Positions 9,880 through 24,105 of a stretch of DNA of 64,000 nt are shown here, one piece after another. Position 1 is the first letter of the stretch; each line of letters starts with the position of its first letter. Origin of the DNA: Pseudomonadota bacterium (GTDB lineage Bacteria; Desulfobacterota; Desulfobulbia; Desulfobulbales; Desulfocapsaceae); contig JAHJKP010000013.1 in the NCBI GenBank assembly GCA_018821985.1, positions 186,001 through 250,000 of the forward strand. The letters are read 5' to 3'. The notes beneath the pieces are model-generated. The model ran no database searches. It was given only the letters and a program-made list of their open reading frames with translations, and had not been told where the DNA came from. Both the position numbers and the translations under genes were made by a program.

Positions 9880-10575
9880 TCAGCCCTTTTTGCGTTTTAG
9901 TCGATTGATAATAATGGTGATTTCCCGGCCCTCTTTCTTGATGACTTGTTTGTTGAGGGTAATCTCAAAGTCTTTTTTGGCCTGTTCAAGAAAAAGGGGG
10001 AGGCTTCTGCGGCTGGCGTCATGGGCCAGATAGATGAAACCATCCGGTTTGAGATATTTCTTGAATATATTCAGCAGAGGCTCAAAAAATTCTTCCCGAA
10101 AAAGGATTTCCGCTCCTGCCAGGATATCGAAAGGGGCAAGCTCGGGTGGATTCAGCCAGTCGAGATGGGTGAAGGTTATATTGTGCAGCCCGGATGCCGC
10201 CGCGCTCACCTTTTGAAAATCCATGATAATATCTTCATAGTCGGAAATGGTCACATCAAAACCGGCTGCCGCTGCGGCAAGACCTGGCGCGCCCAGGCCC
10301 GCCCCCAGTTCGAGCACAGTCTTCCCTTGTGGATCCGGCAACTTGCTCATGACATAGGAAAGAACCATGGCCGCTTCCCAGAGCTTGACCCAGAAAGGAA
10401 ATTCAGAGACATTGGCAAAGGGATCTTTGCCATCCAGCAGTTCTTCAATGTCGGCTATTTTCAGAAGGCGCAGAGTCTTGTCGCCAATTTTCAGCCGGTC
10501 AAAGGTGAGTTTGTATCTGGCCTTGATTTTATTATATATATCCCTTTCCTGTGCAGGTAACGTTCGAATATCCAT
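9880..10575 (-). CDS. Class I SAM-dependent methyltransferase (Methyltransf_16-like)
   Basis: A 231-residue cytosolic methyltransferase. The SAM-binding motif I is TVLELGAGLGAPGLA (residues 86-100), with an acidic motif II (ISDYED) about 18 residues on. The preceding FWVKLWEAA segment resembles the FxxxLWxxA motif of the lysine-methyltransferase-like group (METTL20/21, NNMT relatives), which suggests a protein or small-molecule N-methyltransferase. Substrate unknown. First gene before the siroheme gene, 13 bases apart. Confidence 0.82.
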   Translation of the reverse strand: MDIRTLPAQERDIYNKIKARYKLTFDRLKIGDKTLRLLKIADIEELLDGKDPFANVSEFPFWVKLWEAAMVLSYVMSKLPDPQGKTVLELGAGLGAPGLAAAAAGFDVTISDYEDIIMDFQKVSAAASGLHNITFTHLDWLNPPELAPFDILAGAEILFREEFFEPLLNIFKKYLKPDGFIYLAHDASRRSLPLFLEQAKKDFEITLNKQVIKKEGREITIIINRLKRKKG

Positions 10576-10640
10576 GATTATTCAGGTCTCTCAGGGGTAA
10601 GCCGGAGGCAAGCAGAGTTATTGTTAAAGACTTTTTTTTC

Positions 10641-10680
10641 GAAAAAAAAGGGGCTGATTGATATAGATCAATCAGCCCCT
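10641..10680 (-). terminator. Strong intrinsic terminator of the small secreted protein gene
   Basis: A perfect 14-base-pair stem (10649-10662 with 10667-10680, loop ATAG) is followed on the minus strand by eight T residues (10641-10648). The T tract is itself part of a TTTTTTTTCGAAAAAAAA palindrome. It lies just after the stop of the 79-residue secreted protein gene and before the methyltransferase gene, so it isolates the secreted protein gene as a single transcription unit. Confidence 0.92.
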
Positions 10681-10711
10681 GCAAACTACTTAAAAACAAA
10701 CTTTATGTCAA

Positions 10712-10951
10712 TTAACAACCTTCGATGGCAGCTGCCTTCTTCTTGGCAGGAGCAATTTTACCATCTTTTACAGTTACTTTGTCACCAACTGCTGCTGCAC
10801 CCTCGGCAATTGCCTCGGTGCCATCATCGCAGGTTACGGTTACGTTTGCGCCATCAACGGATTTAACCACACCGGTGCAGGCAAAAGAAGCTGCTGCGGT
10901 GCAGACCAAGAATGAGAGAGCAACAAGTGCAGATACGATTCCTTTTTTCAT
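10712..10951 (-). CDS. Small secreted protein with two-cysteine beta domain
   Basis: No family recognised. Starting at ATG 10951 (GGAG five bases upstream; a TTG four codons earlier is less likely), the product is 79 residues: a signal peptide (about residues 1-24, MKKGIVSALVALS... ending ASFA) and a mature part of about 55 residues with repeated short beta strands (VVKSVDGANVTVTCDDG). There are three Cys, one directly after the predicted cleavage site and one as the final residue. The first Cys is preceded by ASFA rather than a canonical lipobox. The strong downstream terminator implies high expression. Periplasmic location is inferred. Confidence 0.72.
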   Translation of the reverse strand: MKKGIVSALVALSFLVCTAAASFACTGVVKSVDGANVTVTCDDGTEAIAEGAAAVGDKVTVKDGKIAPAKKKAAAIEGC

Positions 10952-11064
10952 TTTTTTCTCCAATGGTATTTAGGTTACTCTTTTCTGGATTTCTCCAGGG
11001 TTTATAAACTAACATTGTAGCAAAGTCTACTAATCAACAAAGCATATGTCAAATAAAAAGCTGA

Positions 11065-11088
11065 ATTAATGAATGCTAATTCATTAAT
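11065..11088 (-). terminator. Possible terminator overlapping the 3' end of the TlpA-like gene
   Basis: A perfect 10-bp inverted repeat, ATTAATGAAT - GCTA - ATTCATTAAT, overlaps the last codons and stop of the thioredoxin-like gene, followed on the minus strand by CAGCTTTTTATTTG. The stem is AT-rich, so termination strength is doubtful. Confidence 0.45.
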
Positions 11089-11579
11089 GTCTTGATGTCC
11101 TTTTCAAGAATGGCGTGAGGGACATAGCCGGGATATTTTTTAACCACATTCCCTTCTTTGTTGATGAGGAAGGAGGTCGGGATGCCGGCGATTCCCCCAA
11201 AATTGCGGGCAGTAGTCTCATCTGCCATCAACACAGGATAGTTGATGGAGCGACTCGCAACCAGCTTTGCCACAATGGATGGTCCTCCTTGATCTACAGA
11301 AAGTCCTACCACTGAAAAATTGGCCTTGGAGAATTGTTGGTGTAGCTCCATCAGCGTCGGAACCTCTTGCATGCAGGGTGGACACCAGGTTGCAAAAAAG
11401 GTGATGAGTAAGGTCTTTCCATTATAGTCTGCACTGTTTACAGTCGTGCCATTGACGGCATCCGCGAGGCTGAAGGAGGGCATCTTTGTTGCCGCATGTA
11501 CGGAGCTGATGGCAAGAAACAGGCATAAAACCATGACTTGTGCTGTTTTAGTGAAAAAGGTGCTAGCGATTTTTTTCAT
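11076..11579 (-). CDS. TlpA/ResA-family periplasmic thiol-disulfide oxidoreductase
   Basis: A 167-residue exported thioredoxin-fold protein: signal peptide about residues 1-29 (cleavage near VHAA), then an AlkC/TSA-Redoxin-like TlpA domain with the redox motif WCPPC (C66 and C69) and the cis-Pro region GIPTSFLI. Family members reduce apocytochrome c or other periplasmic thiols; with a CcsA-type gene about 2 kb away, a role in cytochrome c maturation is plausible but inferred. Shine-Dalgarno GGAG lies nine bases before the ATG. Transcription appears to start from a sigma-70-like promoter overlapped by a palindrome. Confidence 0.9.
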   Translation of the reverse strand: MKKIASTFFTKTAQVMVLCLFLAISSVHAATKMPSFSLADAVNGTTVNSADYNGKTLLITFFATWCPPCMQEVPTLMELHQQFSKANFSVVGLSVDQGGPSIVAKLVASRSINYPVLMADETTARNFGGIAGIPTSFLINKEGNVVKKYPGYVPHAILEKDIKTLMN

Positions 11580-11613
11580 TCACTTGACTCCAGATTGGTA
11601 TTAAAAAAGTTTA

Positions 11614-11667
11614 ATTTTAGCATCTATCGTATAAATGCTAAAATATGTTGTTTGTGCAGAAAGTCAA
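11614..11667 (-). promoter_or_regulatory. Promoter with overlapping palindromic operator upstream of the TlpA-like gene
   Basis: On the minus strand TTGACT (11662-11667) and TATTTT (11640-11645) are separated by 16 bases, a good -35/-10 pair. A perfect 10-bp inverted repeat, ATTTTAGCAT and ATGCTAAAAT with 11 bases between (11614-11644), covers the -10 box and the expected start site. This geometry suits a dimeric repressor, although the same repeat could also fold as a 5' RNA hairpin. Confidence 0.6.
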
Positions 11668-12017
11668 CCGGTAAAGCAGTCACATTGGTGACAGTATCAA
11701 AATTTTCCATTATATGGATAAGAATGATAAGATGATGTGGCAAAATAAATTTTATGGTACATTCAGGAGTCGTTAAAAAAAAACTATTGCATGTCTGAGT
11801 CTTTCATGACTTTTTTACGCCGTTTTTGACATTATGATGATTTACAGCGGCTTATTTGCTGGGAAAAATGTCAGGACTGTCAGCAAGGGCTTTTCCGCGT
11901 GTTTCTTTATCCGCCACCTTCTGACGTTGCCATTGTAGGATGAACGTTGTTTGGAGTGATGGGTGAAGGGCTGTTGGGTCCAATTTATTTTCTCTTTCTC
12001 GGATTGAAGGTGTTCCC
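11668..12017. other. Divergent intergenic region between the TlpA-like gene and surA
   Basis: About 440 bases separate the two divergent genes. The left part holds the TlpA-like promoter and operator. The rest is AT-rich, includes an A9 run near 11777 and TTGACA at 11826-11831 without a convincing -10 partner, and carries the surA 5' leader. No RNA gene or intact ORF was recognised; the minus-strand frame at 11852-12211 overlaps surA and looks like chance. Confidence 0.5.
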
Positions 12018-13040
12018 ATGAATAGTATGTCAGTTGCCAATGTGCGCTTTTTTTCTTTCTCAGGATCGGCCATTTTGCTTCTCCTTGTCCTTGCCCTTCC
12101 AGGGAACTGCCGTGCTGAACTGGTTGACCGGATTGTCGCAGTTGTAAACGATGATGTTATCACCATGTCTGAAGTGAATGAAGAGGGGAAGGCTTTTTTC
12201 CAGAAGATCACAGAGCAGGCACCAGCCGGAGAACTGTCTGCTGCCCTCAGGCGCGCCAGAGAAGAGGTCTTGAGTGGGCTTATAGATAAAAAGCTTATTG
12301 CTCAGGAGGCGGTAAAACAGAAGGTGACGGTCAATGATGCCGAACTTGAGGCCGCTCTTAAACAGATGATCGTCAGTAATAACATGAGTCCCGATCAGTT
12401 TCGTGAGCAATTGAGAACAATGGGCATGAGCGAGAGTGTGTATCGTGATAATTTAAGAAATCAGATTCTCCAAAGCAAGCTTCTCAACTATGAGGTACGA
12501 TCCAAGATTATCATTACTGATGATATGATTCTTGATTATTATGATACCCATTATACTAAGCAGGTGGATCAGGGCGGTTATTATCTTCTGCAGATGGGAT
12601 TTGTCTGGAAAAAAGACTCGGGCCATTCTGACAAGATAGAGGAAACCGCCAGGCTTGATGCCAAAAAAAGGGCAGAGCGGGTACGCAGCCTGGTTGAGAG
12701 TGGCCAGGATTTTTCGACCCTTGCCAAGAAGTTTTCTGAGCTTCCTTCGGCTGCAGATGGCGGCAATATCGGAACATTCCAGAGAGAGGAAATGGCCGAT
12801 TATATGAGGCCTGTTGTGACTGTCTTGACCCCTGGGCAGGTGAGTGATGTCGTGGAGACACCTGACGGGTATCAGTTTTTTAAACTCCTCTCCAGCCAGG
12901 ATGGTGGAATTGTGGTTCAGGCCCCATACGAATCTGTGAAAGAAGAGATCAGGAAGACGCTTTATGATCAAAAGCTGAAAGAGGAATTTGGCGCTTGGGT
13001 CAATAAGATTAAAGAAGCCGCTTATATTAAAAAGTTGTAG
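12018..13040 (+). CDS. surA: SurA-like periplasmic peptidyl-prolyl isomerase/chaperone
   Basis: Periplasmic folding factor for outer-membrane proteins. The 340 residues contain an N-terminal signal or anchor (about residues 14-33), a SurA N-terminal domain (ELVDRIVAVVNDDVITMSEV) and a single parvulin (PPIC) domain at about residues 175-300, with the characteristic ADGGNIG and ETPDGYQFFKL segments. E. coli SurA has two PPIase domains; one is common outside gammaproteobacteria. RecO follows 76 bases downstream on the same strand. AAGGTG before the ATG supports this start; a second ATG is three codons in. Confidence 0.88.
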   Translation: MNSMSVANVRFFSFSGSAILLLLVLALPGNCRAELVDRIVAVVNDDVITMSEVNEEGKAFFQKITEQAPAGELSAALRRAREEVLSGLIDKKLIAQEAVKQKVTVNDAELEAALKQMIVSNNMSPDQFREQLRTMGMSESVYRDNLRNQILQSKLLNYEVRSKIIITDDMILDYYDTHYTKQVDQGGYYLLQMGFVWKKDSGHSDKIEETARLDAKKRAERVRSLVESGQDFSTLAKKFSELPSAADGGNIGTFQREEMADYMRPVVTVLTPGQVSDVVETPDGYQFFKLLSSQDGGIVVQAPYESVKEEIRKTLYDQKLKEEFGAWVNKIKEAAYIKKL

Positions 13041-13116
13041 TTCCGTTTTTCAATCAAGATGGCGGATGTGGGAGCAGGAGCGACCGTAGTCTCACAAGCT
13101 GAGCAGTTACGATTTT

Positions 13117-13890
13117 ATGTCTGAGTCGAGCAAAGAGTCTGCTGCCATTGTCCTTGATTGTCAGGATCATGGCGAATCAGACCAGATAGTCACTTTTTAC
13201 TGCCAGAATATCGGGCGGATGACGGGTATTGCCAAGGGGGCGAAACGAAGTCAAAAACGCTTTGTCAATAAGCTTGAACTCTTCAGTTTCCTTTGTATCC
13301 GTTATACGGAATCACGGAGTGGTAATCTGGTCTTCATCAATGAGGCGGAACTTCTAGAAAGCTTTATCGGTTTGCGACAGAGTATGCCGTTGTATAAGGC
13401 GGCCACTGTTCTTCGAGAACTGACCCTTGTGGCAACCTGTGACCTCGAGGGTGATGATGGATTCTTTTCTCTTCTTCAGTGGGGACTTCAGGCGCTGGAT
13501 TCCCGGCGACCTGCCATGACCGTTCTGGTCTTTTTTCAAATAAAATTTTTTGAGCAGATAGGGTACCGGCCTAATCTCACTTTTTGTCTGCACTGTAACC
13601 AGCCCTTTAATGCGACACAGGATTATGGTTTTGACAGCAGGGCGGGGGGTATCGTCTGCGGGGGCTGCCAGGGAGAGCGGGGACAAATAACAGATCTGCC
13701 ACTTTCCCGGGGGACGATTAAGATCCTTCAATCAGCCCAGAATCAACCCCTGAGTCGTTTGCATCGTCTGCATCTGTCTGGTTCCGGCCTGCGCGAAGCC
13801 CTTTCCCTTTTGTATCATTATGGACGCCATCTGCTGCAGCGGGAAATCTGCTCTTTGAAAGTACTCAGTGAGGCTCATTGGAAAGGTTGA
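13117..13890 (+). CDS. recO: DNA repair protein RecO
   Basis: Recombination mediator that loads RecA with RecR in the RecFOR pathway. The 257 residues have the N-terminal OB-fold (AIVLDCQDHGESDQIVTFYC, GRMTGIAKGAKRS), a helical middle and a four-Cys zinc finger, C157-x2-C160 and C181-x2-C184, seen in many but not all RecO proteins. It lies downstream of surA, with which it probably shares a transcript. Confidence 0.93.
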   Translation: MSESSKESAAIVLDCQDHGESDQIVTFYCQNIGRMTGIAKGAKRSQKRFVNKLELFSFLCIRYTESRSGNLVFINEAELLESFIGLRQSMPLYKAATVLRELTLVATCDLEGDDGFFSLLQWGLQALDSRRPAMTVLVFFQIKFFEQIGYRPNLTFCLHCNQPFNATQDYGFDSRAGGIVCGGCQGERGQITDLPLSRGTIKILQSAQNQPLSRLHRLHLSGSGLREALSLLYHYGRHLLQREICSLKVLSEAHWKG

Positions 13891-14037
13891 TGGTGTCGAG
13901 AAACGAATGATGGTGGAATAGCATAAAACACTATTCAGGTTGACAGCGAGGGGCACTGGCTGGGCACAGGCTTCACGATGAGCCGGCGCTGGCGAAAGTA
14001 CGACCGACAAAGGTGTCGGCTTGAATGCGAATTGGCA

Positions 14038-14973
14038 TCACAAGTATTGTAGCTCTCCGCCATGTTCAATGATCTCATTGCCATCTTTGAGTCGCATCAC
14101 AATGGCTCCATCTGCTCTGATACCGGTTACTGTTGCCTCGTAAAGGGGATTTTGCTGGATGTCATAACCATAGAGGACCCTTTTCCCCAAGGTGTCTGAC
14201 AGATTTTTCCACTGTTCAAGCAGGAGATGACTTTTCTGCTCTTCTGAAAAAAAAGACTGATGCAGTTCCCGTTCTTCTTCATAGCAGAGGAGCCCTATAT
14301 TCCAGGCCATCTTGGCTAAGAATGAAAGGGTGAAGTTATGTAAATTCACCGGGCTGTCAAGGATCTGGCTGAGTGATACCGCCATATTTGTTAAGGCAGC
14401 GGGAAAACGGCTGTTGTTGATGTTGATGCCAAAGCCAAGAAGATGAAATCCCTCGCCATAGCGGGGGCTGCGAAAGCTTTCCACCAGGAAGCCGGCGAGC
14501 TTCCGGCCGTCCACCAGAACATCATTGACCCAGCGCACAGATGCATCGTTGACGCCCAAGTCACGAACGGCCTCACAGCAGGAGACCCCAAGGGTCAATG
14601 GCAAGAGGGTTCTTGCTTTGCTCAGGAAGGTGTCGGCCAAAATCAAACAGCCCCAGAGTCCACCCACCGGGGCATGCCAGGCTCGAGCAAAACGGCCTTT
14701 GGGTCGAATAAGCGTGTCGGCAAGAATGACGGTCCCGCTGGCCACCGACCCCCCGGATTTTTCAAGATCGGAGATATATTGGCGGGCCTGATCCATGGTT
14801 CGATCCATTGAGGAGTGGCATTGGATCACTGAGCCGACAATGGCTCCATAACGGAGAATGCAGAGGATTTCCTCAGAATTGGGCAGTAGAGGATACTGGC
14901 TGCGGCTGGTTTTTTCGTACGTCCAGAGATATTCCTGGAGTGAGGCAGGGGTCGGGCGATTTATTGCCGCCAT
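14038..14973 (-). CDS. birA: Biotin-[acetyl-CoA carboxylase] ligase (BPL/LplA family)
   Basis: Attaches biotin to the carrier protein encoded directly upstream. The catalytic core is recognisable although the motifs are atypical: KGRFARAWHAPVGGLW replaces the usual GRGRxGRxW, and RWVNDVLVDGRKLAGFLVE replaces KWPND..KLAGIL. A C-terminal domain ends with the HGG-type motif (IEHGGELQYL). There is no N-terminal DNA-binding domain; about 60 residues of a different N-terminal extension take its place. ATG 14973 is chosen; a TTG one codon earlier would overlap the BCCP stop region. Coupling to the BCCP gene supports the call. Confidence 0.85.
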   Translation of the reverse strand: MAAINRPTPASLQEYLWTYEKTSRSQYPLLPNSEEILCILRYGAIVGSVIQCHSSMDRTMDQARQYISDLEKSGGSVASGTVILADTLIRPKGRFARAWHAPVGGLWGCLILADTFLSKARTLLPLTLGVSCCEAVRDLGVNDASVRWVNDVLVDGRKLAGFLVESFRSPRYGEGFHLLGFGININNSRFPAALTNMAVSLSQILDSPVNLHNFTLSFLAKMAWNIGLLCYEEERELHQSFFSEEQKSHLLLEQWKNLSDTLGKRVLYGYDIQQNPLYEATVTGIRADGAIVMRLKDGNEIIEHGGELQYL

Positions 14974-14978
14974 CAATG

Positions 14979-15656
14979 TTATTCTTCCAGGGTGGTAGGT
15001 TCAATCAGCTTGTCCCAGTCCGCCTTGACCCTGGTGATAACTTTCTGGATCAGAGGTAATTTGTCCGAGGCACAGATGCCGATGAGTGGTTGGCCCTGAT
15101 CTACAGAGAGTCCGGGGGTGAAGTAAATTGAATGGATCACACCGGCCTCACCGGTATAGTAGATAGGGGTATCGCGCTTCATCAGGGACATGGTAATGAT
15201 TTCATCGCCGGGTTTGATGGTGATCGCTCGTGCCCCTCTTTTTTCTATCCGTGACTGAATGTCGAGGGAGAAAAAATATTTTGCCCGTTCCGGAGCAGGA
15301 AAAAGATCAAGGACTTCCTTGAGGATGTTTTCGATAACCTCTTTCTTTTTCAGGGGATGGCGGATAGTCAGCAGTTTTTCACCTGCCTCCACAAACTGTC
15401 CTTCCAACTCTGTGCGCACGGAAGCAATGGTGCCATTGGTCTTTGCTGTTACAATTTTTGGGTTTCGTTCCCTGGTAATTTCAAAAAGCGGAGTGCCGGG
15501 TATATGCAACCATTCACCACTTGGTGAATTGACATTGCTTCCTTCAGTGATTTTGAAACTGACCCGACCTGTTTGTGTGGCACGGATATCCACATAATCA
15601 TAGGGATCAGAGTGATACTTTTTTAAAATTGCATCAAAATCTATCTCTTCAGCCAT
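14979..15656 (-). CDS. Biotin carboxyl carrier-type protein with two biotinyl-like domains
   Basis: A 225-residue protein with two barrel-sandwich segments. The C-terminal one (about residues 140-195) has the biotin acceptor signature: IKPGDEI, SLMK with the candidate biotinyl lysine K160, and EAGVIHSIYFTPGLSVDQGQPL. The N-terminal one (about 22-100: TGRVSFKI...NGTIASVRTELEGQFVEAGEKLL) lacks an acceptor Lys. A linker (100-140) is predicted helical. The biotin ligase gene follows at once, so the pair forms a self-contained biotinylation unit. It is the best candidate for the carrier of the acetyl-CoA carboxylase encoded at 60.9-64 kb. Confidence 0.78.
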   Translation of the reverse strand: MAEEIDFDAILKKYHSDPYDYVDIRATQTGRVSFKITEGSNVNSPSGEWLHIPGTPLFEITRERNPKIVTAKTNGTIASVRTELEGQFVEAGEKLLTIRHPLKKKEVIENILKEVLDLFPAPERAKYFFSLDIQSRIEKRGARAITIKPGDEIITMSLMKRDTPIYYTGEAGVIHSIYFTPGLSVDQGQPLIGICASDKLPLIQKVITRVKADWDKLIEPTTLEE

Positions 15657-15749
15657 CCATCAACCCTGTTTGTAAGTAGTATTGGTACAGTATTACTGTC
15701 AGTGAATCATTTCAGTTAATTCATTCATGCCAACTTCGCTGATTATTGT

Positions 15750-16274
15750 TCAATGATGGCCGCCATGCATGACATCTTCTGTTGGCTGGTGGCCACCACC
15801 ATGACCTTCTGTGCTCCCTCGGTGAATGGCAATAAGCGGCGATTTTGCTATCTCCATATCCACAATTCGGCATTGAGAGGAAGTGGCCTTGCCGCTCACA
15901 TACATTTCTGCGGTGTAAGAGAAAACCCCGTTTGCATGGGCCTTGATGGTGTCATAAATGACCCACTTATCTCTACCCTGCTCAGCTCCAGCATCATCCA
16001 TGACGGTGCAGATAATTTTAATATTTTTTATGTCGTGATTGCTGCTGTTGTCAATGGCAAAAGCGGCACGGGTCAGATGTCCTTTTTCCTGTACTGCTAT
16101 CTCGGAGCTGGTAAGAAGGACGGTGTCCCGGAATTCCTGGGCGGTTGCAGAGGTTTGGAGTGGTGGTAGGAGTATCTTGGTTATAGGGGTGGTGCTGAAT
16201 GTGTTGAAAGCAAATATGGCAAGACCGAGAATAACGGCGCTGATTGCGATCTTGCCCCAAAATTTACCATCCAT
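15750..16274 (-). CDS. Membrane-anchored protein with His/Gly-rich C-terminus
   Basis: No family recognised. The 174 residues comprise one N-terminal transmembrane helix (about 8-27), a soluble beta-rich domain (about 40-145, for example TRAAFAIDNSSNHDIKNIKIICTVMDD) resembling periplasmic FxLYD-like or other Ig-like domains, and a tail rich in His and Gly (seven His in the last 26 residues) that could bind metal. A strong Shine-Dalgarno (AAGGAGG) precedes the ATG. It is divergent from the selenocysteine gene, with which it shares an intergenic region. Confidence 0.75.
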   Translation of the reverse strand: MDGKFWGKIAISAVILGLAIFAFNTFSTTPITKILLPPLQTSATAQEFRDTVLLTSSEIAVQEKGHLTRAAFAIDNSSNHDIKNIKIICTVMDDAGAEQGRDKWVIYDTIKAHANGVFSYTAEMYVSGKATSSQCRIVDMEIAKSPLIAIHRGSTEGHGGGHQPTEDVMHGGHH

Positions 16275-16575
16275 GAAAAACCTCCTTATCTCAATGTATT
16301 AAGTGTGGTGAATTGAAACAAATGGATTGATGTCTGTAAAATGGTTTAATCGGTTAGTCTGAATAACTATTACGATTTTAATATCCAAAATAAGATAAGA
16401 TGAATCTCTTGTCTAAATTGACCATATTTTATACTTATATAACTTGCACATGGCAAGATTATTCTTTCTTCACTCCGGGGTATTGATTATTTCTTGTGTT
16501 TTGCTATTACTCTTGCGGTGGGATCGGTATTTTTTGGAGTTGCAATTCTTGAATTGAATAGATGAGGTGGTCAGG
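16275..16575. other. Divergent intergenic region upstream of the selenocysteine gene
   Basis: AT-rich 300-base gap between divergent genes. It contains a short inverted repeat CTTGC-ACATG-GCAAG at 16443-16457, a possible operator, preceded by TTGACC (16418-16423) without a good -10. No ORF or RNA gene recognised. GAGGTGG at 16564-16570 serves as Shine-Dalgarno for the ATG at 16576. Confidence 0.4.
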
Positions 16576-16908
16576 ATGAAGATTGATTGGGCATATTTTC
16601 GGAAAGGATGAGTTTCATGCAGCAAGGCCCGGGAGGCTCTTGGTCAGGTTGATATTGCAGTTGAGATTGATGCGAAAAAAGAGGCGTTGCAGGGTGATGC
16701 AGTCTGGGAAAGATTAAGGCGAGCTAAAAAGGTCTTTGTCGGTAAAGGGAAGAAGGTGCAGATGTATCTCCCTGATCCGGCAGTCAAAGATGTGCTCATG
16801 CGCGATGTTCTTGGTCGTAGTGGAAACCTGCGTGCGCCAACCTTACAGGTGGGTGGCACCTATTATGTGGGCTTTAATGAAGCAATGTATGAGGAGCTGA
16901 TGGCATGA
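16576..16908 (+). CDS. Selenocysteine-containing ArsC/glutaredoxin-like thioredoxin-fold protein (in-frame UGA)
   Basis: Read from ATG 16576 (Shine-Dalgarno GAGGTGG six bases upstream), the frame gives MKIDWAYFRKG, then TGA at 16609-16611, then VSCSKAREALG and continues to TGA 16906-16908: 110 residues if the UGA is selenocysteine. The UGA sits where thioredoxin-fold proteins have the first active-site Cys, giving U-x-x-C, and the chain continues as a plausible thioredoxin fold with a cis-Pro segment (RAPTLQVGG, then YYVGF). A SECIS-like hairpin starts 11 bases after the UGA: stem 16623-16629 with 16635-16642, a bulged U at 16638 and loop CGGGA. Without recoding only a 73-codon TTG-start fragment without a redox motif remains. 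The stop overlaps the next gene's start by four bases. SelA/B/C/D are not in the window, so function is inferred. Confidence 0.85.
16612..16645 (+). promoter_or_regulatory. Candidate bacterial SECIS element
   Basis: Directly 3' of the in-frame UGA. C623 to C629 (last three digits of position, 16623-16629) pairs with 16635-16642 through seven base pairs, interrupted by one bulged U (16638); the apical loop is CGGGA with consecutive G residues. Distance from the UGA (11 bases to the stem) and a G-bearing loop agree with known SelB-binding hairpins such as that of E. coli fdhF, where the bulged U is on the 5' side. Confidence 0.65.
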
Positions 16909-17786
16909 ACTGGAAAAGTTTGTTTACCCCTGGGGCCAATATGAGTCCGGAAGAGGCCAGGAAATTTATAGATATCCATCCCAGGGATACCTACCAGATC
17001 CTTGATGTGCGGCAACCTAAGGAGTATGAACAGGGCCATCTTGCCGGCGCTCTGCTCATGCCGGTGAAAGAGGTTGCGACCAGGCTTGCTGAACTGGACC
17101 GGGACGAACCTCTCCTGGTTTACTGTCATTCCGGGGTGCGCAGTAAAGCTGCCTGTCAACTTTTGCTGGCTGAAGGTTTCCGTGAGGTCTACAATATGAG
17201 CGGCGGGATTGTGGCCTGGAAAGGGGAAAAAATCACTGGCGGGGAACTACAGGGCGTAGAGTTTTTCATGGATCGGGAGTTCCCGGATGTCTTTCAAATG
17301 GCCTATGCCATGGAAGAGGGGCTGCGTCAGCTCTACATTGGTCTTATGGATAAGGTTGCGAATGAGGAAAATAAAAAGTTCCTTGAGCGTTTAGCCGCCT
17401 TTGAAGAGGGGCATAAGGCAATGCTGGTGGCCATGTTTGCTCCGGAAGATTTCAGCGGCATTGATGACGACCAGGGATGGTCTAATGCCGAGGGAACCAA
17501 GGACGGTGGGAGCTGTGACGACGTGGGTAATCCTGATGTCGGGATTGTGGAGGGTGGTCTGGATCGGCAGCAGATCATGGATCATTTTGATTCACAACTT
17601 GATACCATGCAAGATATTCTGCAACTGGGGATCATGCTTGAGGCTCAGGCTCTGGATCTTTATAGTCGTCTGGCCAGACAAAGTGAGGTGGGAAAGAGCA
17701 GAGAGTTATTTCACTTTCTGGCAAAAGAAGAGGCCAGGCATCTAGGGTATCTGACTGAGGCATTGGATAAGTTGCTTGCCGAGTAG
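16905..17786 (+). CDS. Rhodanese domain fused to a ferritin-like (rubrerythrin-type) domain
   Basis: A 293-residue cytosolic fusion. Residues 1-110 are a rhodanese with the sulfurtransferase Cys C74 in YCHSGVRS, preceded by ILDVRQPKEYEQGHLAGA. Residues about 115-293 form a helical ferritin-like domain with carboxylate/His metal-ligand pairs (EEGLRQLY..., AFEEGHKAML, EAQALDLYSRL, EEARHLGYL). A low-complexity acidic/Gly linker (about 180-215) interrupts the helices. The ATG overlaps the stop of the selenoprotein gene (ATGA), so they are translated together, which suggests a shared role in sulfane-sulfur or peroxide/redox handling. No physiological substrate can be assigned. Confidence 0.88.
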   Translation: MNWKSLFTPGANMSPEEARKFIDIHPRDTYQILDVRQPKEYEQGHLAGALLMPVKEVATRLAELDRDEPLLVYCHSGVRSKAACQLLLAEGFREVYNMSGGIVAWKGEKITGGELQGVEFFMDREFPDVFQMAYAMEEGLRQLYIGLMDKVANEENKKFLERLAAFEEGHKAMLVAMFAPEDFSGIDDDQGWSNAEGTKDGGSCDDVGNPDVGIVEGGLDRQQIMDHFDSQLDTMQDILQLGIMLEAQALDLYSRLARQSEVGKSRELFHFLAKEEARHLGYLTEALDKLLAE

Positions 17787-17790
17787 AAAC

Positions 17791-17828
17791 ATTGCGAAGA
17801 TAGAGTTTTTTTACTCTATCTTCGCAAT
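17791..17828. terminator. Long hairpin between convergent genes
   Basis: Perfect 16-bp stem (17791-17806 with 17813-17828) and a T6 loop, placed between the convergent rhodanese fusion and DUF-type membrane protein genes. It lacks a T tract after the stem, so it may act as a bidirectional barrier or mRNA 3'-end stabiliser rather than a classical terminator. Confidence 0.6.
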
Positions 17829-17861
17829 GGCGAAAAAGAATGAATGAAACTTGGGGTATTT

Positions 17862-18467
17862 TTATTCCGCTGGCGGGGGAGGGGGCGGTGTAACAGGAGT
17901 GGTAAGGGAAATCTTTTTTTGCAGTCGTTTCTCATAGACTGAAAGGACAAGGAGGGTGGCCAGTGGCTGGGTGAAGAAGACCGCCACGATCACACTGCCT
18001 CCCAGTGAGACGATGATCAGGTAGAGGAGGGTGAGGATAATCTGGTCGGTCCATGGGTCACTGGTGGCCATTGCCCATGATTCTTTAAGCGCATCCATAA
18101 CGCCCAGCTTTTTGTCGGTCATCAGGGGAACCATGTATATGGTGCCAAAGACAAGACATCCGGTCATGAGAATACCGGGGAGTACCAGCATAGTAAAGCC
18201 GATAATCAAGACCACCATCACCACCAAACCAAAGAGGGCCAAGGGCAGGAACAAGCGCATCTCGGAAAAAAGGTCTTTCACTTCCGGTTCCCTGCCTTCC
18301 CGCAGTACCCGAAGGAGTGACTGCATATATCCGGCCATGGTGACCGGGGCCATGATACCGAAACTGAAGACACTCACTACAATCTGGACGACGGTCAGGA
18401 TGAGAACCGGTCCGATAAATTTTAGGGTATTCTGCCATGCTGTTTCGATGTGTTCTTTAAAATCCAT
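17862..18467 (-). CDS. Polytopic membrane protein of unknown function
   Basis: A 201-residue inner-membrane protein with four or five hydrophobic helices (about residues 15-40, 70-95, 95-118, 140-165, 165-185). It resembles the loose group of DUF975/BPSS1780-like integral membrane proteins (MAGYMQSLLRVLREG, LPGILMTGCLVFGTIYMVPL), but the match is only by pattern. The tail is PPPPPPAE. The start has a good Shine-Dalgarno (GGAGCAGACC-ATG). It lies downstream of radA on the same strand, 56 bases away. No function assigned. Confidence 0.78.
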   Translation of the reverse strand: MDFKEHIETAWQNTLKFIGPVLILTVVQIVVSVFSFGIMAPVTMAGYMQSLLRVLREGREPEVKDLFSEMRLFLPLALFGLVVMVVLIIGFTMLVLPGILMTGCLVFGTIYMVPLMTDKKLGVMDALKESWAMATSDPWTDQIILTLLYLIIVSLGGSVIVAVFFTQPLATLLVLSVYEKRLQKKISLTTPVTPPPPPPAE

Positions 18468-18523
18468 GGTCTGCTCCTTACTTTTTTTTTTGAGACTGTT
18501 ACGACGAAATGTGACGGTCCTTT

Positions 18524-19891
18524 TTAATCAAAAATCACCGCCAGCACTTCCTGAATGGTTGACACTCCTTGAAGATTCATACTGCTCTTCCAAGTCAGTC
18601 GTTCCAGATTGCCGCGGGGCAGGATAAAACGGGTGAATCCCAGCCGTTCCGCCTCTCGTACCCGCATCTCTATATGGCTCGTGGCCCGGATTTCCCCTGC
18701 CAGACCAACCTCGCCGCAGACCACTGTGGTTGATGGGATAGATTTGTTCAAGAGGCTTGAGGCCAGGGCGCAGATCACGCCCAGGTCCAGGGCCGGTTCT
18801 TCGATCCGGATCCCTCCGGCAATATTGAGAAAGATATCATGGCCGTAAAGATTGAGGCCGGCCTTTTTCTCAAGAACCGCGCACAGCAGGGCTAGGCGCT
18901 GGGGGTCGGCCCCGATGGCGGTTCGTCTGGCGGTCCCGAGATTGGTGGGGCTGACCAGGGCCTGCACCTCAACCAGGATTGGCCGGGTGCCTTCGATGCT
19001 CGGCAACACCACGGAACCCGGGACGTCCAGGGGGCGTTCCGCCAGAAAGATTTCGGAAGGGTTGCTCACCTGCACCAATCCCTCTTCCTTCATCTCAAAG
19101 ACCCCGATTTCATTGGTAGAGCCAAAACGATTTTTCACGGTACGCAGGATGCGAAAGGCATGGTTGCGGTCACCCTCAAAATAGAGCACCGTGTCCACCA
19201 TGTGTTCTAGGACCTTGGGTCCGGCCAGGGCCCCGTCCTTGGTCACATGGCCCACCAGGATGGTCGGGATGTTTTCCTGCTTGGCCATGGCCAGGATGCG
19301 GGCGGCAGACTCCCGGACCTGGGTCACTGAACCGGCCGCTGAGGGGAAATCATCACAAACCAGGGTCTGGATGGAATCCACGGCCAGCAAGGCGGGGCGC
19401 ATCTCACAGGCCATGGCGATGATGGCCTCGGCTCTGTTTTCGCAGGCCAGATACTCTTCCGGATGCATGGCGTCAAGACGCCGGGCGCGGAGCTTGATCT
19501 GGTGGGCGGATTCCTCGCCCGAGACGTAGAGAACGCGTCTCTCCTGCCTGGCGATGGCGGCCAGCAGATGCAGCAGGAGGGTGGACTTGCCGATCCCGGG
19601 ATCGCCGCCGATGAGCACCACCGATCCCGGCACAATGCCTCCGCCCAGCACCCGGTCGAGTTCGTCGATCCCCGTGGGAATCCGCTCTTCGTCGCTGTCC
19701 GGGGCCAGATGCAGGGGGACCGGCTTGGTGCTGAGCCTTACCTGCGCACCTGTTTTGGGCGGAGTAATTAGCTCTTCGACCAGAGATTCCCAGGCACCAC
19801 ATTGGGAGCAGCGCCCCAGCCATTTCAGACTCTGATAGCCGCATTTCTGACAGATAAAGACTGTTTTTTCTTTCTTCTTTGGTGTATTCAT
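18524..19891 (-). CDS. radA: DNA repair protein RadA (Sms)
   Basis: Branch-migration helicase of homologous recombination. It has the N-terminal C4 zinc finger (FICQKCGYQS...GRCSQCGAW), a RecA-like core with Walker A GGDPGIGKST, the RadA-specific KNRFGSTNEIGVFEM motif, and a C-terminal Lon-protease-like domain (GLNLYGHDIFLNIAGG..). The start is taken at ATG 19891; the longer reading begins at TTG 19909 and adds six residues. About 455 residues, as usual for RadA. Confidence 0.95.
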   Translation of the reverse strand: MNTPKKKEKTVFICQKCGYQSLKWLGRCSQCGAWESLVEELITPPKTGAQVRLSTKPVPLHLAPDSDEERIPTGIDELDRVLGGGIVPGSVVLIGGDPGIGKSTLLLHLLAAIARQERRVLYVSGEESAHQIKLRARRLDAMHPEEYLACENRAEAIIAMACEMRPALLAVDSIQTLVCDDFPSAAGSVTQVRESAARILAMAKQENIPTILVGHVTKDGALAGPKVLEHMVDTVLYFEGDRNHAFRILRTVKNRFGSTNEIGVFEMKEEGLVQVSNPSEIFLAERPLDVPGSVVLPSIEGTRPILVEVQALVSPTNLGTARRTAIGADPQRLALLCAVLEKKAGLNLYGHDIFLNIAGGIRIEEPALDLGVICALASSLLNKSIPSTTVVCGEVGLAGEIRATSHIEMRVREAERLGFTRFILPRGNLERLTWKSSMNLQGVSTIQEVLAVIFD

Positions 19892-19950
19892 AGCATCATC
19901 AGCAAACAATAAATCAGCCTTTCCCTTTCATCGTAATAGAGTTGATTCTC

Positions 19951-20751
19951 ATGGATATATCCTCAAGTAGTATGCCCCCCCATCAGGCCCCTGTCAAATG
20001 GATTCCTCTCGGGTCATCCATTGCTTTTCTCCTCCGCAGCCCAAAACTTCTTGGCTGGAGTCTTTTGCTGGTCCTCCTGACATTCGCGCTCACCTGGGGC
20101 GCTTATCTGCTGACCATAGCTTATGTTGATGGCCAGACAGCCGCTTTTTTTCAACAGGTACCGGAGGCGGTGGGGATCTGGGGGTGGATGAAACACTTCG
20201 GTTGGCTGGTGATGAAATGGACTTTTTTTATCATTTCCAGGATCGTGGCCTTTTATCTTGCCTTTATCCTGGCCTATACCCTCAGCGCGCCAGGCTATGT
20301 TTTTTTGAGTAGTGCTGCTGAAAAAAAGCATGCCGGGCAGGCATTTGAAGAAGATGCGGCCTTTACCCTCAAAGGGATAGTGGTTGATCTTGTGGAAGGA
20401 TTGAAGATTGGTATTCTCGGACTGGTAGTCACTGTAGTGGCCTTGACCCTAAACTTTATCCCGCTCCTTGGTCAAGTCCTTGTCCTTCTGCTCTATGCTT
20501 ATTATTCGGCCCTTATGTTCCTGGATTATCCGACCTCGCGACGACGCTGGAGCCTGGGCCGCAAGATCGGCTGGCTGCGCAGACATGGAAGCAAAGCTTT
20601 TCGTCTGGGTATTCTGCCCGCAGTGATAAGCTTGATCCCCGTCGTCAATATTTTTCTCATGGCCTTGATTTTTCCCTTTCTCACAGTGCATATAACCTTG
20701 AACTTCAGTGTCTTGGAACAGGCAGAGAAAAAGGATGTTGAGCTCGCATAA
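19951..20751 (+). CDS. EI24/CysZ-like integral membrane protein
   Basis: Multi-pass membrane protein of about 266 residues with helices near residues 35-60, 80-115, 150-190 and 220-250 and the EI24-family pattern (FLLRSPKLLGWSLL, YVFLSSAAEKKHAG, LNFIPLLGQV...MFLDYPTSRRRWS). CysZ members of this family transport sulfate; others are uncharacterised. A transporter role is therefore only possible. ATG 19951 is preferred to a TTG three codons upstream. It is divergent from radA and converges with hemW. Confidence 0.75.
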   Translation: MDISSSSMPPHQAPVKWIPLGSSIAFLLRSPKLLGWSLLLVLLTFALTWGAYLLTIAYVDGQTAAFFQQVPEAVGIWGWMKHFGWLVMKWTFFIISRIVAFYLAFILAYTLSAPGYVFLSSAAEKKHAGQAFEEDAAFTLKGIVVDLVEGLKIGILGLVVTVVALTLNFIPLLGQVLVLLLYAYYSALMFLDYPTSRRRWSLGRKIGWLRRHGSKAFRLGILPAVISLIPVVNIFLMALIFPFLTVHITLNFSVLEQAEKKDVELA

Positions 20752-20792
20752 AGAGGTGTCTTCAGGCCTGTGTTTTTTGGTTATTGTCTCCC

Positions 20793-21920
20793 TTACACCA
20801 GCTCGGCCATTACCTGATTGGCAAATATCCGGCCTCTGGCTGTCAGTCGTAGATGGCTTGTAGTCATCTCCACCAGCCCCTGGTCAATCAGATGGGTCAG
20901 GGTGTCGCCGTAATAGTCATCCGGAGCCATCTCATATCGCTTTTGTAGTTGTGTCATTGACACCCCGCAGCTCATACGCAGCCCCATGATCACGGTCTCC
21001 CGAAAGGATGCTGTCCGCTCCAGGCACTCCTCCTCCTGTACCACTGATTGCCCCGATTCGATCTGTTCACAGTAGCGCCGGGGATCGCCGGTCTTCTGCT
21101 GGCGTCTGCCATCCACACAGCCAACGGCACCGGCACCCAATGCCAAGTAGGGGCCGTTCTGCCAGTAGTTGATGTTGTGCCGGCATTCATAGCCGGGCCT
21201 GGCATAATTGGAGATTTCATACTGGGCCAGTCCGCCCTGCTGACAGAGCGTTGCTGTGAGTTGATCCATGATGACCATGTCTTCTTCATCCGGTAAGTTG
21301 AGCAGCCCCTGATTCCGTTGGAGATGATACGGGGTGCCTTGTTCCACGGTCAATTCATAGAGTGAGAGATGGTCTGGTCTAAGGGAGATTGCCTGCTCCA
21401 AGGTCTGTTGCCAGGATTTGTGGTCCTGGCCGGGAAGTCCATACATCAGATCGAGGCTGATATTGTCAAGGCCGGCTGCCCGTGCCATCCGTACGGCCTC
21501 AGCTGCGTCTTCTGCTGAATGTGGACGACCAAGGAGCTGCAGCTCTTTGTCATTGAAGGATTGTACGCCAATAGACAGCCGGTTTATGCCGCTGTGACGC
21601 AGCAGGGACAGTTTCTCCAGGTCAATGGTCTTGGGGTTGGCCTCAATGGAGATCTCTGCCTGATCGCAAAAAGCAAACAGTTCTTGGCAGCAGGACACAA
21701 GTTCTGCCAGTTCTCTGCCCGCAAGGATAGTTGGGGTCCCTCCTCCCAGAAAGAGGGTGGAGAGGAGAGGAACAGAAGTGTGTTGCTGTAGCCATTGGGC
21801 CTCACGGAGCAGGGCGGCTACATAGCGCCGATAAAGTTTGTCCATGCCTGGATAGGAGACAAAGGAGCAATAAGGGCACTTGGAGAGGCAAAAGGGGATA
21901 TGGATATAGAGGGAGGACAT
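20793..21920 (-). CDS. hemW: Radical SAM protein HemW (coproporphyrinogen oxidase-like)
   Basis: The [4Fe-4S]/SAM motif CLSKCPYCSF occurs right after the N-terminal YIHIPFC segment; GGGTPT and the HemN C-terminal domain follow. Proteins of this length (about 375 residues) with CxxxCxYC but without the true HemN N-terminal extension are usually HemW, a heme chaperone/insertase, rather than coproporphyrinogen dehydrogenase. ATG 21920 (MSSLYIHIPFC) is chosen because the longer frame runs into radC. It is 20 bases downstream of radC in a probable rdgC-gatB-radC-hemW run. Confidence 0.88.
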   Translation of the reverse strand: MSSLYIHIPFCLSKCPYCSFVSYPGMDKLYRRYVAALLREAQWLQQHTSVPLLSTLFLGGGTPTILAGRELAELVSCCQELFAFCDQAEISIEANPKTIDLEKLSLLRHSGINRLSIGVQSFNDKELQLLGRPHSAEDAAEAVRMARAAGLDNISLDLMYGLPGQDHKSWQQTLEQAISLRPDHLSLYELTVEQGTPYHLQRNQGLLNLPDEEDMVIMDQLTATLCQQGGLAQYEISNYARPGYECRHNINYWQNGPYLALGAGAVGCVDGRRQQKTGDPRRYCEQIESGQSVVQEEECLERTASFRETVIMGLRMSCGVSMTQLQKRYEMAPDDYYGDTLTHLIDQGLVEMTTSHLRLTARGRIFANQVMAELV

Positions 21921-21940
21921 CAGTGGCCGGCATTCATTTT

Positions 21941-22672
21941 TTAGCGTAGCTTCTCTACCAGTTCCCGGCATTCCTGCTGCAGTTCGCTCATCAACCCATG
22001 ATCGGCAAAGGAATAGCTGCCGTCGCCAATGATCAGGTGGTCAAGGAGCTGGATCTGCATCAATGAGCAGAGCAGGCACAGGGTACGGGTCAGATGACGA
22101 TCCTGGGGAGAGGGATCAAGTGCGCCTGAGGGATGGTTATGGGCGACGATCAGGGCTGCGGCATTGTGACTCAGGGCCTTGTTCATCAGTTCCCGGGGGT
22201 AGACGGTGTTGACGTTGATGGTACCCTCGGCCACTACCTCGGAATCGATGATGGCATGTGATGAGTCGAGAAAAATAACAGTGAAGACCTCTTTCTTCAG
22301 GCCGCGCATGGAGTGGAGCAGATAGTCCCTGACCTCGGCGGAGGAATGAAGGTAGCGCTTGCCGGCCAACCGTTCTTTCAGATAGCGGCTGGCTGCCTCC
22401 TGCACAAAGTGGATGGCAAAGCTGTTCTTGGGGCCGATACCAGGAATCTTTTGCAGGGCGGGGATGGAGGCCTCAAAGACTGCCGTAAAGGAACCGAATT
22501 CGGTTACAAGCTGGCGGGCGGCCTCTTTACAGTCCGTACGTGGAGTGCCGAAGGTGAGCAGCAGTTCCAGGACCTCCGTGTCGCTGAAGCTGTCCAGGCC
22601 GCGTTCCAGAAAACGATCCCGCAGCCGCTGGCGGTGTCCATCTCCCTTTTTCTGCCACTCTTCCTTATCCAC
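21941..22672 (-). CDS. radC: RadC-family JAB/MPN-domain protein
   Basis: 243 residues: an N-terminal helix-hairpin-helix-like region (ELLLTFGTPRTDCKEAARQL, ALQKIPGIGPK) and a C-terminal RadC JAMM domain with the zinc-ligand motif HNHPSGALDPSPQD. Historically annotated as DNA repair, but the biochemical role of RadC is unsettled. It starts 8 bases after the gatB stop, so the two are coupled. Confidence 0.93.
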   Translation of the reverse strand: MDKEEWQKKGDGHRQRLRDRFLERGLDSFSDTEVLELLLTFGTPRTDCKEAARQLVTEFGSFTAVFEASIPALQKIPGIGPKNSFAIHFVQEAASRYLKERLAGKRYLHSSAEVRDYLLHSMRGLKKEVFTVIFLDSSHAIIDSEVVAEGTINVNTVYPRELMNKALSHNAAALIVAHNHPSGALDPSPQDRHLTRTLCLLCSLMQIQLLDHLIIGDGSYSFADHGLMSELQQECRELVEKLR

Positions 22673-22680
22673 CCGGCTCT

Positions 22681-24105
22681 TTATCCTGCCAGTTCCTGGC
22701 TGAACAGCTTGTTGCCCAGGGCGGGATTGGCCTGCCCCTTGGTCTTCTGCATCAGCTGGCCGACAAAATAACTCATGAGCTTGGTCTTGCCTCCCTTGAA
22801 GTCTGCAACCTGACCGGGATTATCGGCAATGATCTGGCGAACAATGATAAGGAGCTCGCCCTCATTGGAGACTTGGCCAAGGTTCTGTTCCTCAACCACT
22901 ACCTCCGGTCCCTTCCCGCTTGCCATCATCTCCAGAAAAACTGTCTTGGCGATCTTGCCGCTGATAGTCCCTGTCTCCACCATGTTTATCAGAGAACCCA
23001 ATTGTTCCGCACTGACCTTACAGGTGGAGAGCTCTTCGCCCTTCAGCTCGCGCATCAGTTCGGTCATGATCCAGTTTGAGACTTTTTTGGCCTGATTACA
23101 GGTTTTGGCAGCTGTCTCGAAATAGTCGGCCAGCTCTCGAGAACTGGTCAGCAGGGAGGCGTCATGCTCGGGCAGTTCGTATTCCTGTATGAACCTGAGC
23201 TTGCGCGCTTCCGGCAGCTCGGGTAGGGTGGCGCGGATTTCTTCGATCCAGGCGTCATCAATCCTGACCGGGATGAGGTCAGGGCAGGGAAAATAGCGGT
23301 AATCATGGGCATCGTCCTTGCTTCGCATGGATTCGGTGCAGTTGCGGTCGGGATTCCAGAGCAGGGTCTCCTGGACGATGGTGCCGCCTTCCATGAGGAT
23401 GTCACGCTGCCTTCGTACTTCGTATTCCAGGGCACTCTGTACATTCCGAAATGAGTTCATGTTCTTCAGCTCGGTACGGGTGCCCAGCTTTTCCTGACCT
23501 ACAGGGCGCAGAGAGATATTGGCGTCACAGCGGAAACTGCCCTCCTGCATGTTGCCATCACAGATGTCGAGATAGCGGAGGATGGCGTGGATTTTGCGCA
23601 GATAAGCAGCGGCCTCTTCGGGTGAACGAAGATCCGGCTCGGAGACGATCTCCAGGAGCGGGGTTCCGGTGCGGTTCAGATCCACATAGGAGACGGGTTC
23701 CCGATCGTCATGGATCAGTTTTCCGGCATCTTCTTCCATGTGCATGCGGGTGATACCGATCATCCGTTTTCGGCCGTCCACCTCGATCTCCACCTGGCCA
23801 TGTTCAACAATGGGCAGATCAAACTGGGAGGTCTGATAGCCTTTTGGCAGATCCGGGTAAAAGTAGTTTTTGCGGGCGAACTGATTGATACGATTGATGT
23901 CTGAGCCAGTGGCCAGACCCATCTTGATGGCGAACTCCACCACCTTTTTATTGAGAACCGGCAGGCTGCCTGGTAGCCCCAGGCACACCGGGCAGGTGTG
24001 GGTGTTGGGTGGCGCCCCGAATTTTGTTGAACAGCCGCAGAATATCTTTGATTCAGTCTTGAGCTGGGCGTGGATCTCCAGCCCGATTACAGTTTCAAAT
24101 TCCAT
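22681..24105 (-). CDS. gatB: Asp/Glu-tRNA(Asn/Gln) amidotransferase subunit B
   Basis: Kinase subunit of the GatCAB transamidosome, which converts misacylated Glu-tRNA(Gln) or Asp-tRNA(Asn). The 474 residues carry the family start [11 protein letters not shown], the zinc-ligand Cys set (FCGCSTKFG...CPVCLGLPG), the cradle-domain signature around [12 protein letters not shown], and a C-terminal YqeY-like tRNA-binding tail ([23 protein letters not shown]). GatA and GatC are not in this window. Confidence 0.97.

Follow-up and report, generated by a model that had tools for sequence, protein, structure and literature searches.

The window analysed here, a stretch of 64,000 nucleotides, raises the question of whether the TGA at positions 16609-16611 ends a short reading frame or is read as selenocysteine (Sec) within a longer one. 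An earlier note had proposed the second reading, with a Shine-Dalgarno sequence, a start at 16576 and an uninterrupted frame to 16908, and the sequence bears out this layout. On the forward strand, the frame opens with the ATG at 16576, meets the in-frame TGA at codon 12 and stays open from there up to the terminal stop TGA at 16906-16908, which yields a product of 110 residues with Sec at position 12. A Shine-Dalgarno-like GAGGTGG (16564-16570, forward strand), identified by eye and unscored, lies 5 bases 5' of the ATG and makes the proposed start signal plausible. When the UGA is translated as a residue, U12 stands in the context R-K-G-U-V-S-C, so that UVSC represents the UxxC motif of the protein. 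The second residue of the motif, Cys-15 (codon 16618-16620, forward strand), is found in at least 90% of 35 aligned proteins.

The gene at 16576-16908 is missed by the standard-code list of open reading frames. When the TGA-extended frames of the window were scanned for codon usage, with the 37 open reading frames of at least 200 amino acids treated as genes and used for training, it ranked 19th. It was the sole frame among the 25 listed whose part after the TGA shared no more than 1 base with any of these 37 open reading frames; for several of the other listed frames, the part after the TGA was the open reading frame of at least 200 amino acids itself.

The protein had been described as unannotatable, a label that does not hold, as it falls in a curated family. 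Compared with the NCBIfam profile NF041106 (ArsC_rel_Se_1, "ArsC family (seleno)protein"), the translation, in which the UGA was read as a residue and which was extended by one or two codons onto or past the final stop, scored 105.2 bits against a cut-off of 85 and covered the profile completely (1-107 of 107). The same match scored 97.5 bits in the scan of the whole genome. With a full-profile match above the curated cut-off, Sec in a UxxC motif and no material difference found, the window protein is a member of NF041106. Searches of Pfam with the window protein gave nothing above the gathering score and nothing at E 0.01, and the classical ArsC profile (PF03960) did not match it at E values up to 1. 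Eight of the 35 homologues do match PF03960 at E 0.01 (best 0.0011), in contrast to the window protein, which does not at that level.

ArsC-like selenoproteins have been in print since 2006-2008, as far as the parts of PMC1794560 and PMC2398784 that were available to us show. The former (2006) lists an ArsC-like selenoprotein for Desulfotalea psychrophila, and the latter, the Global Ocean Sampling survey, has a row "Arsenate reductase 2, UxxC". In the accessible part of a 2026 review (PMC13188914), NF041106 is listed as "Arsenate reductase-like protein, UxxC" with its reference 61, and the functions of such proteins are called largely uncharacterised. Judged from its place in the reference list, reference 61 appears to be PMC2398784. 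Both published proteins are ArsC-like and contain Sec, with UxxC given for the second; they were compared by table rows, and helped by the tie that the review makes between NF041106 and its reference 61, we infer that they belong to the NF041106 family. Within the portions of the literature covered, our search for a named ArsC-type selenoprotein led, for NF041106, to PMC13188914 only, and no characterised family member was found in what was seen of the work on ArsC-like selenoproteins. The view that no characterised homologue could be named thus stands for characterised proteins, and it gives way for the family as such, which has both a profile and a published record.

Evidence on the reading of the UGA comes from the homologues. 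In a sample of the phylum, NF041106 matched in 36 of 395 genomes, 28 of them above the cut-off with the window's own included, and each of these 28 homologues, spread over nine families, contains exactly one TGA. In a sample of the class, 168 of 257 genomes matched (165 above the cut-off), and residues were read, among the matches listed, at 30 loci (28 of them new) plus three further regions. Taken together, 67 distinct loci were read, 62 of which have TGA at the site and five Cys, so that U or C occupies it in every case; the pattern used for reading required U for L023-L050 and L053-L061, all of which passed, and allowed any residue for L062-L092, where L092 alone failed and was then read by hand. 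The pattern of the neighbour scan required U or C. In all Sec loci aligned, the TGA is at the same place. L054, with a contig of the same length as that of L050 (56726) and an identical protein, was taken as its duplicate and was kept out of the hairpin-stability set, the alignments and the tree. L056, which has unread bases at its start, was removed from the stability set and the alignments and retained for dN/dS and the tree. L051 and L052, both below the cut-off, were left out of the alignments, and six other phylum matches below the cut-off were not included.

Conservation extends across the UGA. Among the 35 proteins, 15 columns are invariant and lie on both sides of it, including W5, Y7, R9 and G11 upstream and L85 R86 A87 P88 (LRAP) downstream (35 of 35 each). 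Over the 98 codons after the UGA, dN/dS between the window's gene and six relatives chosen from the set (excluding L055 and everything more distant; no significance test was applied) was 0.55 for L053, 0.30 for L047, 0.25 for L056, 0.21 for L059, 0.19 for L050 and 0.16 for L057. The UGA is thus aligned with Cys in homologues and followed by conserved coding sequence, the pattern sought in a selenoprotein gene. If translation truly ended at the UGA, and what follows had a start of its own or were reached by some other recoding, the invariant W5, Y7, R9 and G11 ahead of it and the Cys homologues that read straight across the site would not be expected. Nothing specific was found in favour of this explanation and no change of frame is needed, so that we regard it as extremely improbable; the statement of the earlier note that a frameshift is unnecessary agrees with this.

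The genome of the window, searched as 3.34 Mb in 57 contigs, contains the complete apparatus for Sec. One tRNA-Sec (RF01852) was matched above the cut-off with 58.7 bits, and selA (628.5 bits), selB (391.5 bits) and selD (380 bits) are all present, which answers the check for sel genes that had been proposed. The genome therefore holds the set of selA, selB, selC and selD that a bacterial selenoprotein calls for. With these genes present and U or C at the site in all 67 loci read, neither of the two refuting outcomes named in the earlier note came about. The selD gene (L019:1480-2460) is itself a selenoprotein gene with an in-frame TGA near the N-terminus (AAG-U-AAKLGPGDL). The TGA in AAG-U-AAK is presumably the usual Sec site of SelD.

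These data also bear on the possibility that the locus is a pseudogene, in which a nonsense mutation has hit the active site of a Cys-containing gene. A TGA does interrupt the frame, Cys forms of the protein exist and a change of TGC or TGT to TGA would suffice. However, a decayed gene would hardly share its single TGA with all 28 above-cut-off homologues of nine families, at the same place in the aligned Sec loci, in a genome with Sec machinery. Moreover, dN/dS is low after the TGA, and the four-base ATGA overlap with the next gene is kept in all 17 rows in which that gene, encoding a rhodanese-rubrerythrin protein, is found. A pseudogene is therefore very improbable. We are highly confident that the protein belongs to NF041106 and that its UGA is decoded as Sec, and infer that Sec is inserted in vivo; decoding would be carried out by the genome's own SelA, SelB, SelC and SelD and would probably be aided by a stem-loop just downstream of the UGA. 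The locus is thus very probably a real, conserved selenoprotein gene in a known family. This settles the standing of the gene, while the family itself is already in databases and reviews.

A SECIS-like hairpin had been part of the original claim, and its geometry is as described: a candidate bacterial SECIS of 7 bp (16623-16642, forward strand) with a bulged U at 16638 and the loop CGGGA at 16630-16634 begins exactly 11 bases after the UGA and lies within the minimum-energy fold. The frequency of this fold in the ensemble is 0.05, and the centroid has a different, longer stem; an alternative, longer stem spans 16620-16651 on the forward strand. Taken alone, the window hairpin is no better than chance (z 0.43 against 200 dinucleotide shuffles, 128 of which are equally or more stable; z -0.85 relative to synonymous recodings). 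For the family the result is different. In 35 homologues, the 36 bases after the UGA were more stable than in 300 of 300 synonymous-codon control sets, with means of -10.0 versus -6.9 kcal/mol and a mean z of -1.33 over these 35 related rows, four of which had a positive z. RNAalifold found no consensus structure in the 35 sequences, and Rfam gave no match at the gathering score in positions 10000-24000 of the window. In alignment A2, 60.7% of the cells are paired in helix 22-29/33-40 and 63.6% when the partner columns are slid by -1; since slides of -1 and -2 give covariation scores like those of the helix, no covariation is claimed for it. From the family context, the hairpin is a probable SECIS, while for the window copy by itself it is a weak candidate.

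The ArsC- or glutaredoxin-like character suggested for the product is in line with the NF041106 match and with its predicted ArsC/Spx/YffB-type fold. A profile of the 35 proteins searched against the PDB matched Spx (E 1.8e-5), YffB (E 1.2e-4) and a putative arsenate reductase (E 1.1e-3), and the profile alignment places UxxC on CTSC and LRAP on LRRP. Pro-88 of LRAP (codon 16837-16839, forward strand), aligned to LRRP of Spx, presumably forms the cis-proline loop expected for the fold. The AlphaFold2 model (pLDDT 95.6, pTM 0.88) has Sec-12 just before a helix at 13-22 and a beta hairpin at 52-64. In VIA-align, the best rows for the model were Spx (Z 8.0, with 87 residues aligned at rmsd 2.9) and YffB (Z 7.5, with 91 residues at rmsd 4.3), followed by arsenate reductases (Z up to 7.0), a glutathione transferase (Z 6.9) and small redoxins (Z 6.5-6.7); these values are modest, and a Z near 8 can mean a common arrangement only. 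A Foldseek search of the PDB gave nothing at E <= 0.001. The predicted fold resembles that of ArsC, Spx and YffB. Spx and YffB (PDB 1z3e, 3l78, 1rw1) share the likeness in profile and fold, with CTSC at the position of UxxC and LRRP at that of LRAP, and they differ in having Cys for Sec and in an identity of only about 20-27% in the structural alignment.

Two more specific roles were weighed; both are alternatives within the selenoprotein reading, and their likelihoods are therefore not exclusive of our main confidence. Because Spx is the best match both by profile and by VIA-align and its CTSC aligns with UxxC, the protein might be an Spx-like redox switch, which would sense oxidants by U-x-x-C and bind RNA polymerase rather than act as an enzyme, Spx being a transcription regulator. 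The low identity argues against such a role, as does the beta hairpin at 52-64 of the model, since Spx has helices in the matching region. Spx orthologues are furthermore described, in the part of PMC3831629 that was accessible, as conserved in low-GC Gram-positives, and from these comparisons a switch of this kind seems quite improbable. A true arsenate reductase, in which Sec would replace the catalytic Cys of ArsC, is suggested by the name of the family, by its profile and fold neighbours and by the label "Arsenate reductase-like" in the reviews, as far as these were available. Yet among proteins of known structure Spx and YffB are nearest to it in sequence, and the published selenoprotein plainly named an arsenate reductase has UxxS in the portions of the literature covered, whereas the present kind has UxxC. 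On the downstream side of the homologues, no arsenic gene was among the next genes that could be named by eye. Judged from sequence and fold, an arsenate reductase is unlikely, though less so than the switch.

A Sec/Cys thiol redox protein is the likely role, and an enzymatic Sec/Cys redox cycle is rather favoured as its mode of action. The product would be a thioredoxin-fold protein of the ArsC/Spx/YffB type in which Sec-12 stands where helix 1 begins. Sec-12 would be the nucleophile that attacks an oxidised substrate (a disulfide, persulfide or other chalcogen or metalloid bond), Cys-15 would act as the resolving residue and release the substrate by forming a selenenyl-sulfide, and a reductant of the thioredoxin or glutaredoxin type would reopen this bond. 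One Sec homologue in the alignment of 35 (L045) has UxxS, and L092 has Cys at the first and Ser at the second motif position (CxxS). As Ser replaces the second Cys in both, some members may do without the resolving Cys, and the mechanism may not hold throughout the family.

Among the matches listed, the search for Cys homologues that had been proposed gave five loci, all of one genus (genomes G617-G621): L069, L087, L090 and L091, with TGT or TGC codons, and L092. In G301 (L042), which belongs to the same genus, the TGA is retained. In a 67-row tree that is built on few columns, the five Cys rows and G301 form a group (99/90) nested among the Sec rows. Of the Cys genomes, G618, G620 and G621 had both selA and selB above the cut-off; G617 had no selA match and G619 partial selB matches only. 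For at least three of the five, the Cys form is thus not accounted for by a loss of Sec decoding, and the Sec/Cys difference within one genus, with selA and selB kept in three of five Cys genomes, is a useful by-product of the survey. A second, distant ArsC-like frame was seen by eye at L051:1468-1812 (forward strand), with an ATG at 1468 and a TGA at 1498-1500 followed by TTCRKTKEFL, which gives UxxC; the NF041106 match of L051 is 32.9 bits, below the cut-off.

Directly downstream in the window, a gene for a rhodanese and rubrerythrin-like protein (16905-17786, forward strand; Pfam PF00581 8.2e-21, PF02915 5.7e-12) has its start in overlap with the selenoprotein stop, as ATGA. With the window's own included, this gene was found in 17 of 67 rows of loci, or 16 of 66 without the L050/L054 duplicate, and the loci that carry it come from the window's own family-level group or from contigs titled Desulfocapsa, Desulfocapsaceae or Desulfobulbaceae. 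At the other 50 of the 66 loci the scan did not detect this gene; three of these loci (L023, L026, L058) hold less than 500 bases of downstream sequence. The next downstream gene of the other homologues we take, by eye, to be BioF, an NFACT-type protein, YifB/ComM or something else. Since these neighbours vary between lineages, only the rhodanese-rubrerythrin group is informative on function, and since the gene was undetected at most loci, the link is a feature of some relatives and not of the family. In the close relatives, the overlap suggests a persulfide or oxidative-stress context, and it may point to the function of the family. A literature search for rhodanese, rubrerythrin and selenoproteins in combination led to a single partial match, a paper on a Desulfurella genome. 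A two-protein persulfide relay of the Sec redoxin and the coupled rhodanese-rubrerythrin protein is conceivable in the window's family-level group, albeit unlikely: the rhodanese domain would load sulfane sulfur, the selenol of Sec-12 would strip the sulfur and the rubrerythrin-like domain would remove peroxide. If true, the relay would protect cells living on compounds of sulfur. A perfect 17-bp inverted repeat with a six-T loop was noticed by eye at 17790-17829 (arms 17790-17806 and 17813-17829), in the stretch that separates the rhodanese-rubrerythrin gene from a convergent open reading frame (17862-18467).
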